Below, piece after piece: positions 6,595 to 19,296 of a stretch of 52,553 nucleotides of DNA (positions are counted from its first letter, which is position 1; the number at the start of each line of letters is the position of its first letter). The translations under genes and the position numbers were made by a program. The DNA is taken from contig VXPF01000118.1 in NCBI GenBank assembly GCA_009839725.1, positions 1 to 52,553 on the forward strand. The letters are read 5' to 3'. The notes under the pieces are model-generated. The model had not been told where the DNA came from, made no database searches, and saw only the letters and a list, made by a program, of their open reading frames with translations. The stretch is from Dehalococcoidia bacterium. Lineage in GTDB: Bacteria; Chloroflexota; Dehalococcoidia; Tepidiformales; Tepidiformaceae.

Positions 6595-8531
6595 GCCGGT
6601 ACCACCTCGAGGTTGCCGCCGGCGTCCACGGTGGCGCGCCAGCCCTGCGGGATGAAGGTGGTTGCGTCCGGCTGCGTGACGACGGCCGGCCCGTCGAGCG
6701 TCGACCCGACCGCAAGGTCCGCACGGGAGACCTGGATGGCGGGAACGCCTCCCGCCAGCGCGATCGGCTGGGGCTGGCCGGTTCCTCCGGTTGCCTCGAT
6801 GGCTGTGTCGGGAAGGTCGCGGGGGACGCCCTGCGCGCGGCAGCGGAGGGCCACGAGTTCAGCGGGGCGCTCGCTCGTAGCGAACCCATATTCGCGTTCG
6901 TGGGCCGTGTGAAGCGCTTGCACGATCGTCGCCGGCTCGGGCTTGTCGATGGCGACGCGCAGCTCGTGGGCCTGGCCGCGGTAGCGGACATCGGCGGCCC
7001 AGGCCAGCTCGGCGAGCGTTCCGCCCGCGCCCTGGAGTCCAGCGACCGCTTGCTCCTCCAGCGTGGCCGCCGTCGTGCGCACCGTCTCGGCGGCGTCTTC
7101 ATCGAGGGGGAGCAGCAGCCCCTGGCCGCGCTCCACCACCTCCGGCGCGGTGGCGATGCCGATGGCCGAGAGCACTCCCGCGTGCCGGGGCACGAGCACC
7201 TTCCCGATGCCAAGCTCCGCCGCGAGCTCGCAGGCATGGAGCGGGCCGGCCCCCCCGAAGGCCACGAGCGTGAAGCCGGCGGGGTCGTAGCCGCGTTCGA
7301 GACTGACCCGGCGGAGGGCGCGGGCCATGGTCGCGTTCGCCACCTCCACCACTGCCGAAGCCGCGGCTTCTGTCTCGCCGAGGGTGGCAAGTGCCTCGCG
7401 CGCCCGTCCGAGGTCGGGGATCACGCTGCCGCCGAGGGGCGCCTCCGGGCGGAGGCGCCCGAGCACGAGATTCGCGTCGGACACCGTCGGGAGCGTTCCC
7501 CGACCGTAGCAGGCGGGGCCGGGGTCGGCGCCCGCGCTCTGGGGGCCGACGGCGAGCGCCCCCCCGCTGTCGAGCCTGGCGATCGACCCTCCGCCCGCCC
7601 CCACGGTCACGATGTCGACCATGGGGGTATGGACGGCGAGGCCGTCGACCTCGGTGGCCGAGCGGTAGCGGGGCTCCCCCGGACAGAGCGAGACGTCGGT
7701 GCTCGTGCCGCCCATGTCGAAGGTGATGACCTGCTCATGACCGGCGGACCGGGCGACGGCGAGCGCCCCGAGGACGCCGCCCGCGGGCCCGCTCGTCACC
7801 ATCGAAGCGGGCCGCTCGCTGGCCGTGGCGGCGTCGGTCAGGCCCCCAGCCGAGTGCATCACCCGCAGTCCCCGCGATCGCTCGTCGATGCCGCCGAGAT
7901 AGCCCCGCACCGTCGGTTGGAGGAAGGCGTTGACGGCCGTCGTGCTGGCGCGTTCGTACTCGCGGTGCTCGGGCAGGACCTCGTGGGAGGCGCTCACGGG
8001 GAACCCCGCCTCGCGGAGCGCCCCTGCCAGGAGGGCCTCGTGCTCGGGACGCAGGTAGGAGAAGAGCAGGCAGATGGCGACCGCCTCTGCGTTGAGGCGG
8101 CGGGCTTCGTCCACGACCCGAGCGACCTCGGCGTCGTCGAGGGGGACGACGACCTCCCCGCTTGCCCCGATCCGCTCCCGCACGGTGATGACGTCGCCCC
8201 GGGAGACGACGTGAGGTGTGCGGCGAGGCTCGAGGTCGTAGAGAGCGGGGCGCTCCTGCCGCCGGATCGTGAGCAGGTCGCGGAAGCCAGCGGTGGTGAC
8301 GAGGACGGTGCGCGGCCCGCGGCGTTCGAGCAGGGCGTTCGTGGCGACGGTGCTGCCGTGGGCGAGCGCGCCCTCCGCGAGGCCTTCCGCGCCTTCCAGC
8401 ACGGCCTGCTCGGGCGCGGTTGGCGTGGAGAGGCGCTTCCACGTGCGGATGCCGCCTCCGTCGATCGCGACGAAGTCAGTGAACGTGCCACCCACGTCCA
8501 CGCCGAGGACGCCGTCCTGCGCCCCGGTCAC
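6591..8531 (-). CDS. hyuA: hydantoinase A / oxoprolinase ATP-binding subunit
   Basis: 646 aa from a GTG at 8531. The N-terminus has the ASKHA-type phosphate loop (GVDVGGTFTDFVAIDGG), then HGSTVATNALLERRG. The middle carries ITFDMGGTSTDVSLC and VGAGGGSIA, all hallmarks of the HyuA/acetone-carboxylase ATPase family. It should phosphorylate the cyclic amide substrate with ATP for opening together with HyuB. The gene starts 1 nt after the uvrC stop and overlaps hyuB by ATGA, so uvrC, hyuA and hyuB form one transcription unit, an unusual mixture of DNA repair and catabolism. Confidence 0.93.
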   Translation of the reverse strand: MTGAQDGVLGVDVGGTFTDFVAIDGGGIRTWKRLSTPTAPEQAVLEGAEGLAEGALAHGSTVATNALLERRGPRTVLVTTAGFRDLLTIRRQERPALYDLEPRRTPHVVSRGDVITVRERIGASGEVVVPLDDAEVARVVDEARRLNAEAVAICLLFSYLRPEHEALLAGALREAGFPVSASHEVLPEHREYERASTTAVNAFLQPTVRGYLGGIDERSRGLRVMHSAGGLTDAATASERPASMVTSGPAGGVLGALAVARSAGHEQVITFDMGGTSTDVSLCPGEPRYRSATEVDGLAVHTPMVDIVTVGAGGGSIARLDSGGALAVGPQSAGADPGPACYGRGTLPTVSDANLVLGRLRPEAPLGGSVIPDLGRAREALATLGETEAAASAVVEVANATMARALRRVSLERGYDPAGFTLVAFGGAGPLHACELAAELGIGKVLVPRHAGVLSAIGIATAPEVVERGQGLLLPLDEDAAETVRTTAATLEEQAVAGLQGAGGTLAELAWAADVRYRGQAHELRVAIDKPEPATIVQALHTAHEREYGFATSERPAELVALRCRAQGVPRDLPDTAIEATGGTGQPQPIALAGGVPAIQVSRADLAVGSTLDGPAVVTQPDATTFIPQGWRATVDAGGNLEVVPA

Positions 8532-10428: not shown

Positions 10429-10839
10429 TCACCGGGACAGTTCGGCGATGGCATCCGCCGGGGTGAGGGTGGGAACCGGTGAGTCCACGTAGTCGCGCAC
10501 GTTTCGGGTGACGATGTACCGCGCGTCGCAGGCGCGGGCAGCTGCAACTTGCATCGCGTCCTCGAAGTCGGCCAGGGGCAGCGAGAGGGCGTAGTAGAGA
10601 TCGTCGGTTGTGGTGGCCGCAACCTGGGCGAATTCAAGGAGGCCCTCGATGAACGCGCGGGCTATAGCCCTGTCGAGTTCTCTCGTGACGATGTAGTCGA
10701 TGTTGGAGAACGAGTGCCAGGCGATGCAGGCTTGCTCGGCGCCCTCCGCAACCTGCCCGAGGACGGCCCGTGACGCGTCGGCGTACGGGGGCCGGTCCAG
10801 TGCGACGTCGATGAGCATGTCGGAGTCGAGCAACAGCAT
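10429..10839 (-). CDS. PIN-domain toxin, VapC-like
   Basis: 136 aa. PIN nucleases are Mg-dependent RNases used as toxins. The N-terminus has MLLLDSDMLIDVAL (Asp6 and Asp8), the middle has a conserved Asp/Glu pair in PLADFEDAMQVAAA, and the C-terminus has DARYIVTRNVRDY, matching PIN acidic motifs. The ATG lies 10 nt after the stop of the antitoxin gene, in the usual antitoxin-first order. The operon is preceded by a paired palindrome that probably binds the antitoxin. RNA target unknown. Confidence 0.85.
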   Translation of the reverse strand: MLLLDSDMLIDVALDRPPYADASRAVLGQVAEGAEQACIAWHSFSNIDYIVTRELDRAIARAFIEGLLEFAQVAATTTDDLYYALSLPLADFEDAMQVAAARACDARYIVTRNVRDYVDSPVPTLTPADAIAELSR

Positions 10840-10849
10840 CGTGAGGGCG

Positions 10850-11206
10850 CTACAACCCGTACTTCTCGCGGTGGTACTCGTCTCGCAGGTTGTCGAGGTC
10901 CTCGTCAGTCAGCTGGCGCTTCGGCTTGAACTGTCCGGCCCAACGCGCCGGGAAGGTAAGCGACTTGTCGCGCCAGCGATCCGCGCGCTCCTGTTCCGTT
11001 TCGAACGGCAGGTAGGCCTCGATCTCCTCGAGAGTCTTCCCTGCTGCCGAGGACGTGCCTTCCGGCGGGGCGGCCGCTTCCAGCGCATCGCGAAGGAGCT
11101 GTTCGATGACGGAGGACAGGGAAGCGCCGTGCGTGCGTGCGTACTCCTTGGCCCGGGGGAGCACCTCGGAGTCGATGGTGACGGTGAGTTTGGTCTTGGT
11201 CTGCAT
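10850..11206 (-). CDS. antitoxin of the PIN toxin (ribbon-helix-helix / DUF6364-like)
   Basis: 118 aa. The N-terminal part reads as a beta strand followed by helices (KTKLTVTIDSEVLPRAKEYA, then SLSSVIEQLLRDALEA), as in DUF6364 and ribbon-helix-helix antitoxins. The C-terminal half (ETEQERADRWRDKSLTFP...) is charged and likely wraps the toxin. I choose ATG 11206 because GAGGAA lies 7 nt upstream; a GTG at 11221 is in frame but overlaps this site. Upstream at 11223-11261 is a perfect inverted repeat, the likely self-regulation operator. Confidence 0.8.
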   Translation of the reverse strand: MQTKTKLTVTIDSEVLPRAKEYARTHGASLSSVIEQLLRDALEAAAPPEGTSSAAGKTLEEIEAYLPFETEQERADRWRDKSLTFPARWAGQFKPKRQLTDEDLDNLRDEYHREKYGL

Positions 11207-11222
11207 GGGCGGGTTCCTCACG

Positions 11223-12107: not shown

Positions 12108-12914
12108 GTGGAGTACGAACACATCCTGTACGACGTGGCGGATGGCATCGCGACCATCACGCTCAACCGCCCCGAGCGGCTGAACGCCTTCGACAACCTG
12201 ATGTTGAGCGAGTGGCGCGACGCGATCGAGCGTTCGGATGCCGATCGCGACGTGCGCGTCATCATCCTGACGGGCGCGGGGCGCGGCTTCTGTAGCGGCA
12301 TGGACGTGGCCCACGAGACCGCCGGCGAAGGGGTCCTGCGCTCGGAGGAGAGCGTGGCCGAGCGGCGACACAGCCTCCGCAACAGCGTCCACCACATCCC
12401 GCGGGCGCTGGTGCAGCTCGAAAAGCCCTACATCGCGGCGGTGAACGGCGCGGCCGTGGGGGCGGGCATGGACATGGCATCGATGGCCGATATTCGTTTC
12501 GCCAGCGAGCGGGCGCGGTTCGGCATGGGCTACGTGCGCATGGGGCTCATTCCCGGCGACGGCGGCGCCTTCACGCTGCCCCGCATCGTGGGGACTGCCA
12601 AGGCACTGGAGCTGATCTGGAGCGGTGAGCTGTTCGACGCGCAGGAGGCGTTGCGGATCGGCTACGTGAGCGAGGTCTGCCCGCCTGAGGAGTTGCTGGA
12701 CCGGACGCGCGAGTTCGCCCTCAAGATCGCGCGGGGGCCGGCGACGGCCATCCAGCTCGCCAAGAAGCTCGTCTACCGCTCCGCCAACCTGACGTTCGAC
12801 GAACACCTCGACTTCGCCCAGATGGCGATGACCCTCGCGCAGTCCACCGAGGACGCGAAGGAGGGCCCCCTCGCCTTCACCGAGAAACGCGAGCCCAACT
12901 TCAAGGGCTACTAG
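12108..12914 (+). CDS. enoyl-CoA hydratase/isomerase (crotonase) family protein
   Basis: 268 aa from GTG 12108. Crotonase features: ITLNRPERLNAFD at the N-terminus, the oxyanion-hole segments GRGFCSGMDVAHE and AAVNGAAVGAGMDMA, and GLIPGDGGAFTLPRIVG with KALELIWSG after it. A glutamate matching the second catalytic Glu of hydratases is present (KALELI). The segment usually reading QPE is GMGYVRMG here, without the first Glu, so isomerase, hydrolase or other crotonase chemistry is possible. It is the first gene of an operon with a selenoprotein peroxiredoxin and an acyl-CoA dehydrogenase. Confidence 0.88.
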   Translation: MEYEHILYDVADGIATITLNRPERLNAFDNLMLSEWRDAIERSDADRDVRVIILTGAGRGFCSGMDVAHETAGEGVLRSEESVAERRHSLRNSVHHIPRALVQLEKPYIAAVNGAAVGAGMDMASMADIRFASERARFGMGYVRMGLIPGDGGAFTLPRIVGTAKALELIWSGELFDAQEALRIGYVSEVCPPEELLDRTREFALKIARGPATAIQLAKKLVYRSANLTFDEHLDFAQMAMTLAQSTEDAKEGPLAFTEKREPNFKGY

Positions 12915-12930
12915 CGACAAGGAGAAAGAT

Positions 12931-13392
12931 ATGCCTCCAGCACCTGGTGACCGCGCTCCGGCGTTCACGCTGATGAACAAGGACCGGGAGGAGGTCACGC
13001 TCGACTCCTTCCCCGGCAAGCACATCGTCCTGGCGTTCTATCCGCTCGCCTTCACCGGGGGGTGAACGTCGGAGATGATCGCCTTCCGGACGCACACGGA
13101 TGCGTTCGCGGAGGCCAACGCCCAGGTTCTGGGCGTGAGCGTTGATTCCTTCGCCGCCGTCGGCGAGTTCCAGGAGAAGCTCGGGCTGGAGTTCCCCCTC
13201 GTCTCGGACTTTCCGAAGAACCAGGCGGGTCGCGACTACGAAATCTTCAACGAGGACTTCGGTTTCCATAACCGCGCGACCTTCGTGATCGACAGCGAGG
13301 GCATCGTGCGCGATGCCTACCTCGAGCCGCGCGACTTCGAATCGCACGCCCCGCATGCGCTCGAAGTTTTGCAAGAGCTGAACGGGAGCTAG
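12931..13392 (+). CDS. AhpE-type peroxiredoxin with selenocysteine (in-frame TGA)
   Basis: 153 aa if TGA at 13063-13065 is read as selenocysteine, residue 45. ATG 12931 has AAGGAG 6 nt upstream. The protein starts MPPAPGDRAPAFTLMNKD and continues LAFYPLAFTGG-U-TSEM, so Sec takes the place of the peroxidatic Cys in the PxxxTxxC motif (P38, T42, U45). The remainder (EFPLVSDFPKNQAG, YEIFNEDFGFHNRATFVIDS) matches one-Cys AhpE peroxiredoxins. There is no other Cys, so resolution must use an external thiol. It reduces peroxides in the cytoplasm, and its operon partner is an FAD acyl-CoA dehydrogenase that may generate peroxide. Sense is kept on both sides of the TGA with no frame change, so it is not a pseudogene. 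selA/B/C/D are not in the window. Confidence 0.9.
13067..13108 (+). promoter_or_regulatory. candidate bacterial SECIS hairpin(s)
   Basis: Just after the TGA, two mutually exclusive stems can form. One pairs 13067-13073 with 13085-13092 (7 bp, bulged G13088). The other pairs 13087-13094 with 13101-13108 (8 bp including one G-U, loop CACGGA at 13095-13100). The second loop lies 29 nt past the TGA, within the range described for bacterial SECIS elements; its G residues are late in the loop. Which one SelB would bind is not decided by eye. Confidence 0.4.
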
Positions 13393-13398
13393 GCGACC

Positions 13399-14571
13399 GT
13401 GCTCTTTCGCGACTCGCCTGAGCAGGCCGCCTTCCGCGCTGAGATCCGCGAGTTCCTCGATGCGGAGCTGCCCGCGGAGATGTGGAACATGCGCAGCGAT
13501 CGCGAGGAGATGGACGACGAGGAGGCGGCCTTCGCGAAGCAGTTCCGGGGTCAACTGGCCGACCGGGGCTGGCTCACGCTGGGCTGGCCGAAAGAGTACG
13601 GCGGCGGCGGCGCGGACTTCGTCATGCAGACGGTCTACATGGAGGAGATGAGCTCGCGCGGCGCGCCCGGGGCCTACGACCAGGGGGTCTGGCTGGCGGG
13701 TCCGGCGCTCATGCACGAGGGCACGAAGGAGCAGCAGGATCGCTGGCTGCCCGGCCTCCGCGACGGCACCTCACGCTTCTGCCAGCTCTTCTCCGAGCCG
13801 GGCGCAGGCTCGGACCTCGCCTCGCTGCAGACAAGCGCCATCCGCGACGGCGACGAGTACGTCCTGAACGGCCAGAAGATCTGGACGAGCTGGGCGACCG
13901 GAGCGAAGTGGGGAATCCTTCTGGCGCGCACCGACCCGGACGCTCCCAAGCATCGTGGCATCAGCTATTTCATCCTCGACATCGAGTCGCCGGGGGTGAG
14001 CGTGCGGCCGCTCGTGAACATGATGGACGCGGCGCACTTCAACGAGGTGTTCTTCGACGACGTGCGCATCCCTATCGACAACCGCATTGGGGAGGAGAAC
14101 CGGGGCTGGTACGTGGCCGCGGCGACGCTCGACCAGGAGCGCAGCTCGATCAACCGCATCGTCATGACGCGCTCGACGCTGGAGGCGCTGGTCGACTACG
14201 TGCGCGAGCGGGACGGTGGGCAGGCGCCGCATCACATCCGCCACGAACTGGCCTCACGCACGATCGACTTCGAGCTGGGGCGCTGGCTCTGCTACCGGGT
14301 GGCGCAGATGCAGAGCGAAGGGGAGAACCCGAACTACGAGGCATCGATCTCGAAGGTGTTCGGCACGGAGCTGCAGCGCCAGATGGGCCAAACGGGAATG
14401 CGCGTCCTTGGTATGGAGGGGCAGCTCGAGCCGGGCAGTCCCTACGTGCCCCTGCAGGGCCGAGTCGAGCGCTGGGCCCTCGCGGGTCCCAGCTACACGG
14501 TGGCCGGCGGCACGAGCGAAGTGAACCGCAACATCATCGCGACCCGCGGGCTGGGATTGCCGCGCTCATAG
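13399..14571 (+). CDS. acyl-CoA dehydrogenase (operon with the selenoprotein)
   Basis: 390 aa from GTG 13399, 6 nt after the peroxiredoxin stop. Acyl-CoA dehydrogenase fold: GWLTLGWPKEYGGGGADF, the FAD/substrate segment CQLFSEPGAGSDLASLQTSA, NGQKIWTSWATGAKWG, and the C-terminal GGTSEVNRNIIATRGLGLPR. It oxidises an acyl-CoA to the 2,3-enoyl-CoA with FAD, passing electrons to ETF or, if oxidase-like, to oxygen. The crotonase two genes upstream would handle the product. The acyl group is unknown. It ends 8 bases before the convergent DUF402 gene. Confidence 0.92.
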   Translation: MLFRDSPEQAAFRAEIREFLDAELPAEMWNMRSDREEMDDEEAAFAKQFRGQLADRGWLTLGWPKEYGGGGADFVMQTVYMEEMSSRGAPGAYDQGVWLAGPALMHEGTKEQQDRWLPGLRDGTSRFCQLFSEPGAGSDLASLQTSAIRDGDEYVLNGQKIWTSWATGAKWGILLARTDPDAPKHRGISYFILDIESPGVSVRPLVNMMDAAHFNEVFFDDVRIPIDNRIGEENRGWYVAAATLDQERSSINRIVMTRSTLEALVDYVRERDGGQAPHHIRHELASRTIDFELGRWLCYRVAQMQSEGENPNYEASISKVFGTELQRQMGQTGMRVLGMEGQLEPGSPYVPLQGRVERWALAGPSYTVAGGTSEVNRNIIATRGLGLPRS

Positions 14572-18439: not shown

Positions 18440-18459
18440 GGCAATCGCATATGGTTGCC
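18440..18459. promoter_or_regulatory. inverted repeat at the second toxin-antitoxin start
   Basis: GGCAA (18440-18444) and TTGCC (18455-18459) flank a CATATG at 18448-18453; a second CATATG lies at 18460-18465. The site covers the ribosome site and start codon of the antitoxin, as an operator for self-repression would. Confidence 0.4.
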
Positions 18460-18861
18460 CATATGAAGAAGACGACGCTCAACATCGATGAGGCCATCAT
18501 GGCGCGCCTGAAGGAAGAAGCCATCAGGCGGAAGACCACCATGGGTGCGCTCGTGGAGGCGGGGATCCGAAAGATCCTGGCCGAGGGCGAGGCGCCCGCG
18601 GTGGTGGCCGGTGAGCTGCCGCCCCTGCCAATAGCAAACATGGGCGAGCCCCTGGTGGACATCGCGGATCGGGAAGCCCTGTACGAGGTGCTGGATCGGG
18701 AGCGAGACGAGCGCCTGTACGGGAGGCCACCGGGCATCGCTGGAGAGCGTGACGCGCCTGGCCGAAGGCGCAGAGAGCTGGCCGTGGCCGAGGATCCGGC
18801 GCCCTATGACGCCGGCGAGGCCAGCGAGACGGAAACACGCGGACCTGCGGACGACGACTAA
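18451..18861 (+). CDS. ribbon-helix-helix antitoxin of the second PIN pair
   Basis: 136 aa from ATG 18451, which has GGAGG 9 nt upstream; ATG 18463 (MKKTTLNI) is in frame but lacks a site. The ribbon-helix-helix DNA-binding part is residues 5-43 (KKTTLNIDEAIMARLKEEAI, then RRKTTMGALVEAGIRKIL), as in type II VapB/CopG-like antitoxins. The tail contains DREALYEVLDRERDERLYG and an acidic end, likely the toxin-binding part. The stop TAA abuts the GTG of the toxin gene, so the two are translationally coupled. Confidence 0.85.
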   Translation: MVAHMKKTTLNIDEAIMARLKEEAIRRKTTMGALVEAGIRKILAEGEAPAVVAGELPPLPIANMGEPLVDIADREALYEVLDRERDERLYGRPPGIAGERDAPGRRRRELAVAEDPAPYDAGEASETETRGPADDD

Positions 18862-19296
18862 GTGCTCGCCGTTGACACCAACGTGCTGCTCTACGCGGCG
18901 AACGCCGACTCGGAGCTTCACCGACCCTGCCTACGACGACTGGAAGCGTGGAGGCGCGACCCCACTCCCACTTTCCTGACGTGGAACGTGTGCTACGAGT
19001 TCCTGAAGAACGCCACGAACACGAGGGTTTTCCCGGTGCCGTGGCAGGCGCAGCAGGCCATGAGCTTTCTCCAGGCGCTGCTCGCCTCGCCCGGATTCAC
19101 GCTTCTGACGGCGACGGGCCGCCACGAGGCAGTGCTCGCGCAGACCTTGGCCGAGCTACCCGGGTTGCGAGGGGGAGTCCTGCACGACCTTCATACCGCG
19201 GTCCTCATGCGAGAGCACGGCATCAGCCAGATCTGCACGAACGACCAGGACTTCCACCGGTTTCCGTTCCTTACCGTGATCGACCCGCTCGAGTAG
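18862..19296 (+). CDS. PIN-domain toxin, VapC-like
   Basis: 144 aa from GTG 18862, directly after the antitoxin stop. PIN nuclease motifs: MLAVDTNVLLYAAN (Asp5), WNVCYEFLKNATN (Glu), VLHDLHTAVLMREHG (Asp) and ICTNDQDFHRFPFLTVIDPL (Asp pair). It should be a Mg-dependent RNase held inactive by the antitoxin. It is not close in sequence to the PIN protein at 10429-10839, so the two modules came separately. A strong hairpin terminator follows. Confidence 0.9.
   Translation: MLAVDTNVLLYAANADSELHRPCLRRLEAWRRDPTPTFLTWNVCYEFLKNATNTRVFPVPWQAQQAMSFLQALLASPGFTLLTATGRHEAVLAQTLAELPGLRGGVLHDLHTAVLMREHGISQICTNDQDFHRFPFLTVIDPLE

Follow-up and report, generated by a model that had tools for sequence, protein, structure and literature searches.

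The window analysed here, a 52,553-nt stretch of DNA from a Dehalococcoidia bacterium of the Tepidiformaceae, a family of the Chloroflexota, carries a peroxiredoxin gene in which a TGA codon occupies the place of the peroxidatic cysteine, raising the question of whether this codon is read as selenocysteine (Sec) and which signal would then recode it. The initial annotation had proposed Sec at an AhpE-type active site, in an otherwise intact frame that needs no frameshift and with peroxiredoxin sequence on both sides of the TGA. Our reading of the frame bore this out: it consists of 153 codons at 12931-13392 (+), with a single in-frame TGA at codon 45, a TAG stop and no frameshift, and a Pfam AhpC-TSA match (PF00578; residues 5-128, E 2.7e-36, 124.7 bits vs a cut-off of 26) crosses the TGA. 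When the translation with U45 was aligned to AhpE of M. tuberculosis, the TGA fell on the peroxidatic Cys, and P38, T42 and Sec45 of the PxxxTxxC/U motif are all present. As had also been anticipated for annotation software, the list of open reading frames (≥80 aa) contains only 13075-13392 in this frame, corresponding to 105 aa.

Table 1. Features of the Sec peroxiredoxin locus, in window coordinates.
Feature	Position	Strand	Basis
Enoyl-CoA hydratase/isomerase (crotonase), upstream neighbour	12108..12914 (start approximate)	+	Pfam ECH_1 E 2e-61; synteny
Shine-Dalgarno-like AAGGAG before ATG 12931	12919..12924	+	Sequence reading
Sec peroxiredoxin gene, AhpE/BCP-like, 153 aa, Sec45	12931..13392	+	Pfam, AhpE alignment, homologs
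TGA read as selenocysteine (strongly supported), peroxidatic position (PLAFTGG-U)	13063..13065	+	TGA in 26/26 best-ranked sequences; aligned with homolog Cys
H1, first RNA hairpin, proposed SECIS spacer	13081..13115 (nt 19-53 from U of UGA)	+	Shuffle z, two-sided changes
H2, second RNA hairpin CGCCCAGGUUCUGGGCG, apex G-GUU-C, proposed SelB-binding	13119..13135 (nt 57-73)	+	Shuffle z, pair 57-73 alternation
Acyl-CoA dehydrogenase, downstream neighbour, 6 nt past the peroxiredoxin stop	13399..14571	+	Pfam Acyl-CoA_dh domains; synteny

The same open reading frame list could be taken to mean that the TGA is a premature stop, arising from a sequencing error or in a pseudogene, and that only the 105-aa part after 13075 is translated, if at all. 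Against this reading, all 26 best-ranked matches (the window's own counted in) came from separate genomes and have TGA at the peroxidatic codon, and a TGA is present in each of the first 28 entries (28/28) of the match list. We then compared 100 homologs, combining 33 and 67 loci from separate searches with three duplicates dropped and with seven loci that are near-identical to same-genus sequences (L048-L054) excluded from the counts. The peroxidatic codon was TGA in 69, TGC or TGT in 30 and AGC in one, proportions that are not a frequency, since TGA loci were picked deliberately and Cys loci as controls. Neither another stop codon nor a frameshift, which the initial annotation had named as evidence against Sec, was found at this codon in any of the 100 (among the loci whose match includes a TAA or TAG, the three examined, L092, L113 and L115, have TGA, Cys and Cys at the site, respectively), and the distance from the site to the AQVLG strand was a constant 19 codons in these profile-placed homologs. 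Purifying selection also acts on both sides of the TGA: against five same-genus sequences, dN/dS was 0.07-0.28 for the whole gene, 0.03-0.19 before the TGA and 0.07-0.30 for codons 70-150 in four pairs (saturated in the fifth), while for codons 46-63 two of the five comparisons, both with low dS, rose to 0.67 and 0.52. Together with the complete Sec machinery and the RNA structure tied to Sec described below, the conservation and selection at the TGA led us to reject a sequencing error or pseudogene, to which we give next to no credence.

The genome that contains the window was then searched for selA, selB, selC (tRNA-Sec) and selD, the check that had been suggested for this gene. The assembly comprises 160 contigs (the window being contig 130) and 2.83 Mb and is 92.5% complete, and all four components are present: tRNA-Sec (71.1 bits vs a cut-off of 47, with a TCA anticodon according to ARAGORN), selA (E 2e-154), selD (E 1e-99, carrying an in-frame TGA of its own) and selB (292.9 bits), of which the first 457 aa are available before the contig ends, ahead of the SECIS-binding domains. 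Four matches to other selenoproteins of the molybdopterin family were found in this genome, and no stop codon lies inside any of the matched stretches.

Co-occurrence was examined across 36 genomes of the family. Because the Rfam tRNA-Sec model matched all 14 control genomes, five of them above its cut-off, a tRNA-Sec was counted only above 60 bits, and four family genomes with matches of 48.9-49.4 bits were scored negative. By these criteria, 29 genomes had selA above its cut-off or a counted tRNA-Sec, and seven had neither. Among the matches listed, the TGA peroxiredoxin was found in 25/29 Sec-positive and 0/7 Sec-negative genomes (Fisher 4e-5, uncorrected for kinship); the four Sec-positive genomes without it among these matches were G012, G019, G024 and G029, and the best match listed for each of the seven Sec-negative genomes had no internal stop. 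G024 also has a SelD with Cys in place of Sec (L084), alongside selA and tRNA-Sec. Outside the family, one relative of the same class (G053, 95% complete; loci L146 and L060) has tRNA-Sec, a TGA selD and a TGA peroxiredoxin and gave no selA match at E 0.001, which may be due to a gap in the assembly or to a different route to Sec-tRNA. In another genome (G054), two tRNA-Sec matches over the cut-off lie on contig 68, at 7946-8039 and 12427-12520 (68.9 and 63.1 bits).

These data also bear on whether the UGA could be read as another amino acid, or could mostly serve as a regulatory terminator with occasional read-through. Sec decoding in bacteria is known to be partial, and nothing specific speaks for such a reading here. 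Cys stands at the site in 30 of the 31 non-TGA homologs examined, and the TGA gene is absent, among the matches listed, from the seven family genomes without Sec machinery; we thus regard this reading as very improbable. Given the machinery and the conservation of the codon, Sec at the peroxidatic position, and hence at the active site that had been predicted, is strongly supported by the comparison of genomes.

The assignment to the AhpE type held up in part. By sequence, AhpE is the best match in the PDB (6.2e-22 with the single protein; 3e-39 with a profile, 5id2). The fold ranked otherwise: an AlphaFold2 model (Cys for Sec, 6-sequence alignment, mean pLDDT 85.9) has the thioredoxin-like peroxiredoxin fold, with TM of about 0.9 to peroxiredoxins, and Foldseek placed BCP 9a4d (7.0e-16), Bcp1 3drn (1.5e-15) and then Prx1/Prx2 entries above AhpE 1xvw (3.2e-14). 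Since AhpE comes first by sequence and BCP first by fold, we call the protein AhpE/BCP-like; none of the NCBIfam peroxiredoxin models reached its cut-off with the window protein. The proposal of a one-Sec enzyme without any other cysteine holds for the window gene, which has no Cys codon in the whole frame 12931-13392, and for 24 of the 26 sequences of the close set (the window copy plus 24 more sequences from the family and L043 from the class); a Cys codon is likewise absent from 45/69 Sec homologs. The conserved Arg (R115) was invariant in 23 aligned sequences. The active-site Pro at residue -7 from Sec, which the window protein retains, is kept in 32/69 Sec forms (Val in 16, Ala in 13) vs 30/30 Cys forms examined.

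The gene had also been placed in an operon with a crotonase and an acyl-CoA dehydrogenase, and synteny supports this, as the order crotonase, peroxiredoxin, acyl-CoA dehydrogenase is found at 9/9 same-genus loci, the window included. The same two genes lie on either side of the peroxiredoxin in L038, L039, L041 and L042; at the remaining loci, at least one of them was not found in the stretch examined, which in some cases ends at the contig. A Sec-based peroxide scavenger would thus be placed inside an acyl-CoA oxidation gene cluster, and it may act against H2O2 or acyl hydroperoxides arising from acyl-CoA oxidation. Elsewhere in the window, the genes at 10429-10839 and 10850-11221 (-) form a pair resembling a PIN-type toxin-antitoxin module (10429-10839 being a PIN_3 match), and a second such pair, by its appearance, lies at 18451-18861 and 18862-19296 (+).

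Folding of the coding region after the UGA showed two hairpins, H1 and H2. To separate RNA constraint from protein constraint, we exchanged, gene by gene, the codons used for the same amino acid. Applied to the 26 close sequences, this codon shuffle gave a mean z of -3.04 for H1 (24/26 at p<=0.05), -2.37 for H2 (18/26) and -4.11 for both together (26/26). The 43 other Sec homologs gave -1.06 for H1 (13/43) and -1.40 for H2 (17/43 at p<=0.05), and the 31 Cys/Ser homologs gave no signal (+0.17, 1/31 for H1; +0.10, 0/31 at p<=0.05 for H2). A 24-nt sliding profile of the close set had minima at +24 (-2.2) and at +48 to +54 (-1.5, -2.3), with values from -0.9 to +0.7 elsewhere. H1 and H2 are therefore RNA-level structures of the close Sec genes that are absent from the Cys homologs examined. 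Both were also present in the fold of a Desulfuromonadaceae MAG (L055; z -3.8 for H2 and -1.4 for H1).

Base-pair changes were counted in an alignment of 25 of the 26 close sequences (A2, L021 excluded). Over 20 pairs and 25 sequences, 90.0% of the cells were paired vs 85.5% in shuffles, and 16 cells were changed on both sides vs 4.3 in shuffles; the sequences are related, so that these counts overstate independence. Six pairs had changes on both sides, all of them in H1 (6 of its 14 pairs). As a control, sliding the register by +2 gave 14 two-sided cells, which is near the observed 16 with a lower score, and other slides gave 2-7. H1 is conserved more in its shape than in its sequence: we found no shared motif in H1 loops, with GU within the first 4 nt in 1/47. 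Its loop, at a spacing of 29 nt from the UGA, reads CACGGA in the minimum free energy (MFE) fold of the window, with no G in the first two positions. A hairpin with its loop at 22-33 nt from the UGA appeared in the MFE fold of 47/47 Sec genes having H2, Sec genes alone being counted.

H2 has the apex G-GUN-C, with the loop 60 nt away from the UGA. Its arms are fixed at synonymous positions: Ala is GCC in 26/26 close sequences vs 169/398 elsewhere in the same genes, Leu is CTG in 24 or TTG in 2, and Gly is GGC in 25/26; unlike in the arms, the third base of the loop codon GTN is free. At the basal pair 57-73, a synonymous third base of Asn, Asp or Gly faces the first base of a Val or Ile codon, and compensatory change has recurred there among these close relatives (C-G 14, T-A 10, T-G 1, C-A 1), with about seven changes per side on a tree built without the hairpin stretch. 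The six upper pairs of H2 had no two-sided change within the close set. Beyond the close set, pair 57-73 was canonical in 21/43 other Sec vs 17/31 Cys/Ser genes, which is no better. All five H2 pairs were formed in 47/69 Sec vs 2/31 Cys/Ser homologs, and for the 43 Sec genes outside the close set the share of these H2 cells that paired was 79% in register vs 18-60% in registers shifted by as much as 6 nt. With Thr as the first residue, the combination of ACC and GGT occurs in 5/9 Sec genes and 0/2 Cys genes. H2 overlaps the conserved peptide AQVLG.

The full H2 is absent from 22/69 Sec homologs, which must use another signal. Four Sec genes without a full H2 (L107, L118, L120 and L129) have a proximal hairpin with a CGUGA loop, 21 or 27 nt from the UGA and on different stems, lying at an in-frame Arg codon in 4/4 (CGT in L129); they are perhaps an ordinary SECIS class.

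A related apex was found in selD. We examined 31 selD loci, of which 27 were placed by the search pattern (26 Sec and 1 Cys), so that selD offers no Cys control group. GGCGCAGGTNCTGTCGCC follows the gene's own UGA in 12/15 family selD genes. In MFE folds, a GUN loop at a spacing of 33 was formed in 11/15 family and 5/11 other selD genes, and a short hairpin preceded the GUN-loop hairpin in 8/15 and 4/11, respectively; the codon-shuffle profile had minima at +6 (-1.5) and +24 (-1.7). In L075 both arms are changed (CAA, CTT) and the stem is kept, and in L082 (GAG, CTC) the three inner pairs are kept and the hairpin is not formed in the MFE fold. The apex of the selD hairpin of the window's own genome resembles the G-GUN-C of H2, a likeness that comes partly from protein sequence, because the selD hairpin codes for AQVL and H2 overlaps AQVLG.

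Which of the two hairpins would then recruit SelB? Since H1 is at the published distance but lacks the loop, and H2 has the loop but not that distance, the two are most simply read together as a tandem SECIS, and we consider that the gene probably encodes a one-Sec peroxiredoxin decoded through H1 and H2 together. The layout would comprise the UGA, 15 nt that are at most weakly paired, H1, a 3-nt linker and H2, whose G-GUN-C apex would be the SelB-binding site. By folding away 35 nt, H1 would act as a spacer that brings the H2 loop in space to about where a usual SECIS loop sits, near the ribosome, so that the UGA at 13063 could be decoded by SelB and tRNA-Sec as the peroxidatic residue. The selenol would then attack the peroxide and be oxidized to a selenenic acid, with recycling by an outside reductant, which we propose because the window protein lacks a second Cys.

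The alternative of a true Sec peroxiredoxin with a single-hairpin SECIS, in which SelB binds H1 and H2 is accessory or regulatory, deserves weighing. At 29 nt the H1 loop falls inside the published range of 16-37 nt, a loop at 22-33 nt recurs in all 47 Sec genes with H2, the set counted for this, the shuffle signal of H1 exceeds that of H2, and an alternative fold of the H1 region in the window gene satisfies the published rule, as do folds in 19/31 Cys/Ser genes. Other features point the other way: in the window, the H1 loop of the MFE fold starts with two bases other than G, and no motif is shared by H1 loops, while the G-GU apex, the fixed synonymous arm bases and the likeness to selD all belong to H2. 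SelB binding to H1 is thus a possible but rather unlikely arrangement.

Model searches were also applied to the hairpins. The published bSECIS rule, as coded here, passed 28/47 Sec genes with H2, 14/22 Sec genes without it and 19/31 Cys/Ser genes; with that many controls passing, the scan was set aside as a discriminator. An Rfam search gave no SECIS match and three chance-level matches. We also built a covariance model on the alignment of 25 close sequences. Among 60 relatives, it recovered the TGA gene in all 25 family genomes having one and in G055 at E 2.8e-14 or better (next match 5.0e-6), although most of these matches are sequences on which it had been trained. Run on 74 other loci (43 Sec, 31 Cys/Ser), it gave 20 matches down to E 1.1e-5, all of them Sec genes and some without a full H2; the best Cys gene, at 4.8e-5, ranked above several Sec genes, and protein homology contributes to these matches.

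Returning to the tandem arrangement, we lean, with some reserve, towards a distinct bacterial SECIS class, in which a spacer hairpin conserved in shape would bring a remote SelB-binding hairpin (apex G-GUN-C, loop at 60 nt) to the ribosome. Such an arrangement would serve as the regular signal for a large group of Sec peroxiredoxins from Chloroflexota and for that of one Desulfuromonadaceae MAG at least, and the selD genes of these genomes would carry a compact form of it, with the loop at 33 nt. A 2026 review notes that the single-hairpin SECIS model does not accommodate a subset of bacterial selenoprotein genes, which points to distinct classes (PMC13188914), and another paper likewise describes some bacterial selenoprotein genes that do not meet the SECIS model (PMC12013277). 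The Chloroflexota group is a candidate for one such class, and its natural compensatory changes make the reach rule of SelB testable. For annotation, ordinary ORF callers would shorten such Sec peroxiredoxins, and tools that expect the SelB hairpin at 16-37 nt may misplace or miss the signal. Full-text searches of open-licence papers listed neither a Sec AhpE nor a two-hairpin bacterial SECIS.

Among known proteins, AhpE of M. tuberculosis (Rv2238c), a 1-Cys peroxiredoxin from another phylum, shares the PLAFTG stretch and the single redox residue with the window protein but has Cys where the latter has Sec. AhpE is reduced by mycoredoxin/mycothiol and prefers fatty acid hydroperoxides. Sec peroxiredoxins with a TxxU motif are a listed family (PMC13188914, PMC9312934, PMC1794560, PMC1088965), and the 2026 review cites the Eubacterium acidaminophilum protein for it (PMC13188914). 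The window protein has in common with this Prx, as described there, the AhpC/TSA family and Sec at the peroxidatic position of T-x-x-U, but it is nearer to AhpE, has no second Cys and carries H1 and H2; the NCBIfam PrxU model gave 61.5 bits vs a cut-off of 270. The thiol peroxidase Prx-SUH (NCBIfam NF045827), also a selenoprotein of the peroxiredoxin superfamily and listed with a CxxU motif in the same review (PMC13188914), is a weak match (33.9 bits vs a cut-off of 298). Sec peroxiredoxins are thus a known kind, and what looks new is the recoding signal. The bSECIS model, as given in that review, places the apical loop 16-37 nt from the UGA with a G in its first two positions (PMC13188914). 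H2 resembles it as a hairpin in the coding region after the UGA, with an apex that fits the G[G|U] loop rule, but differs in having its loop at 60 nt rather than 16-37 nt, with a second hairpin in between.
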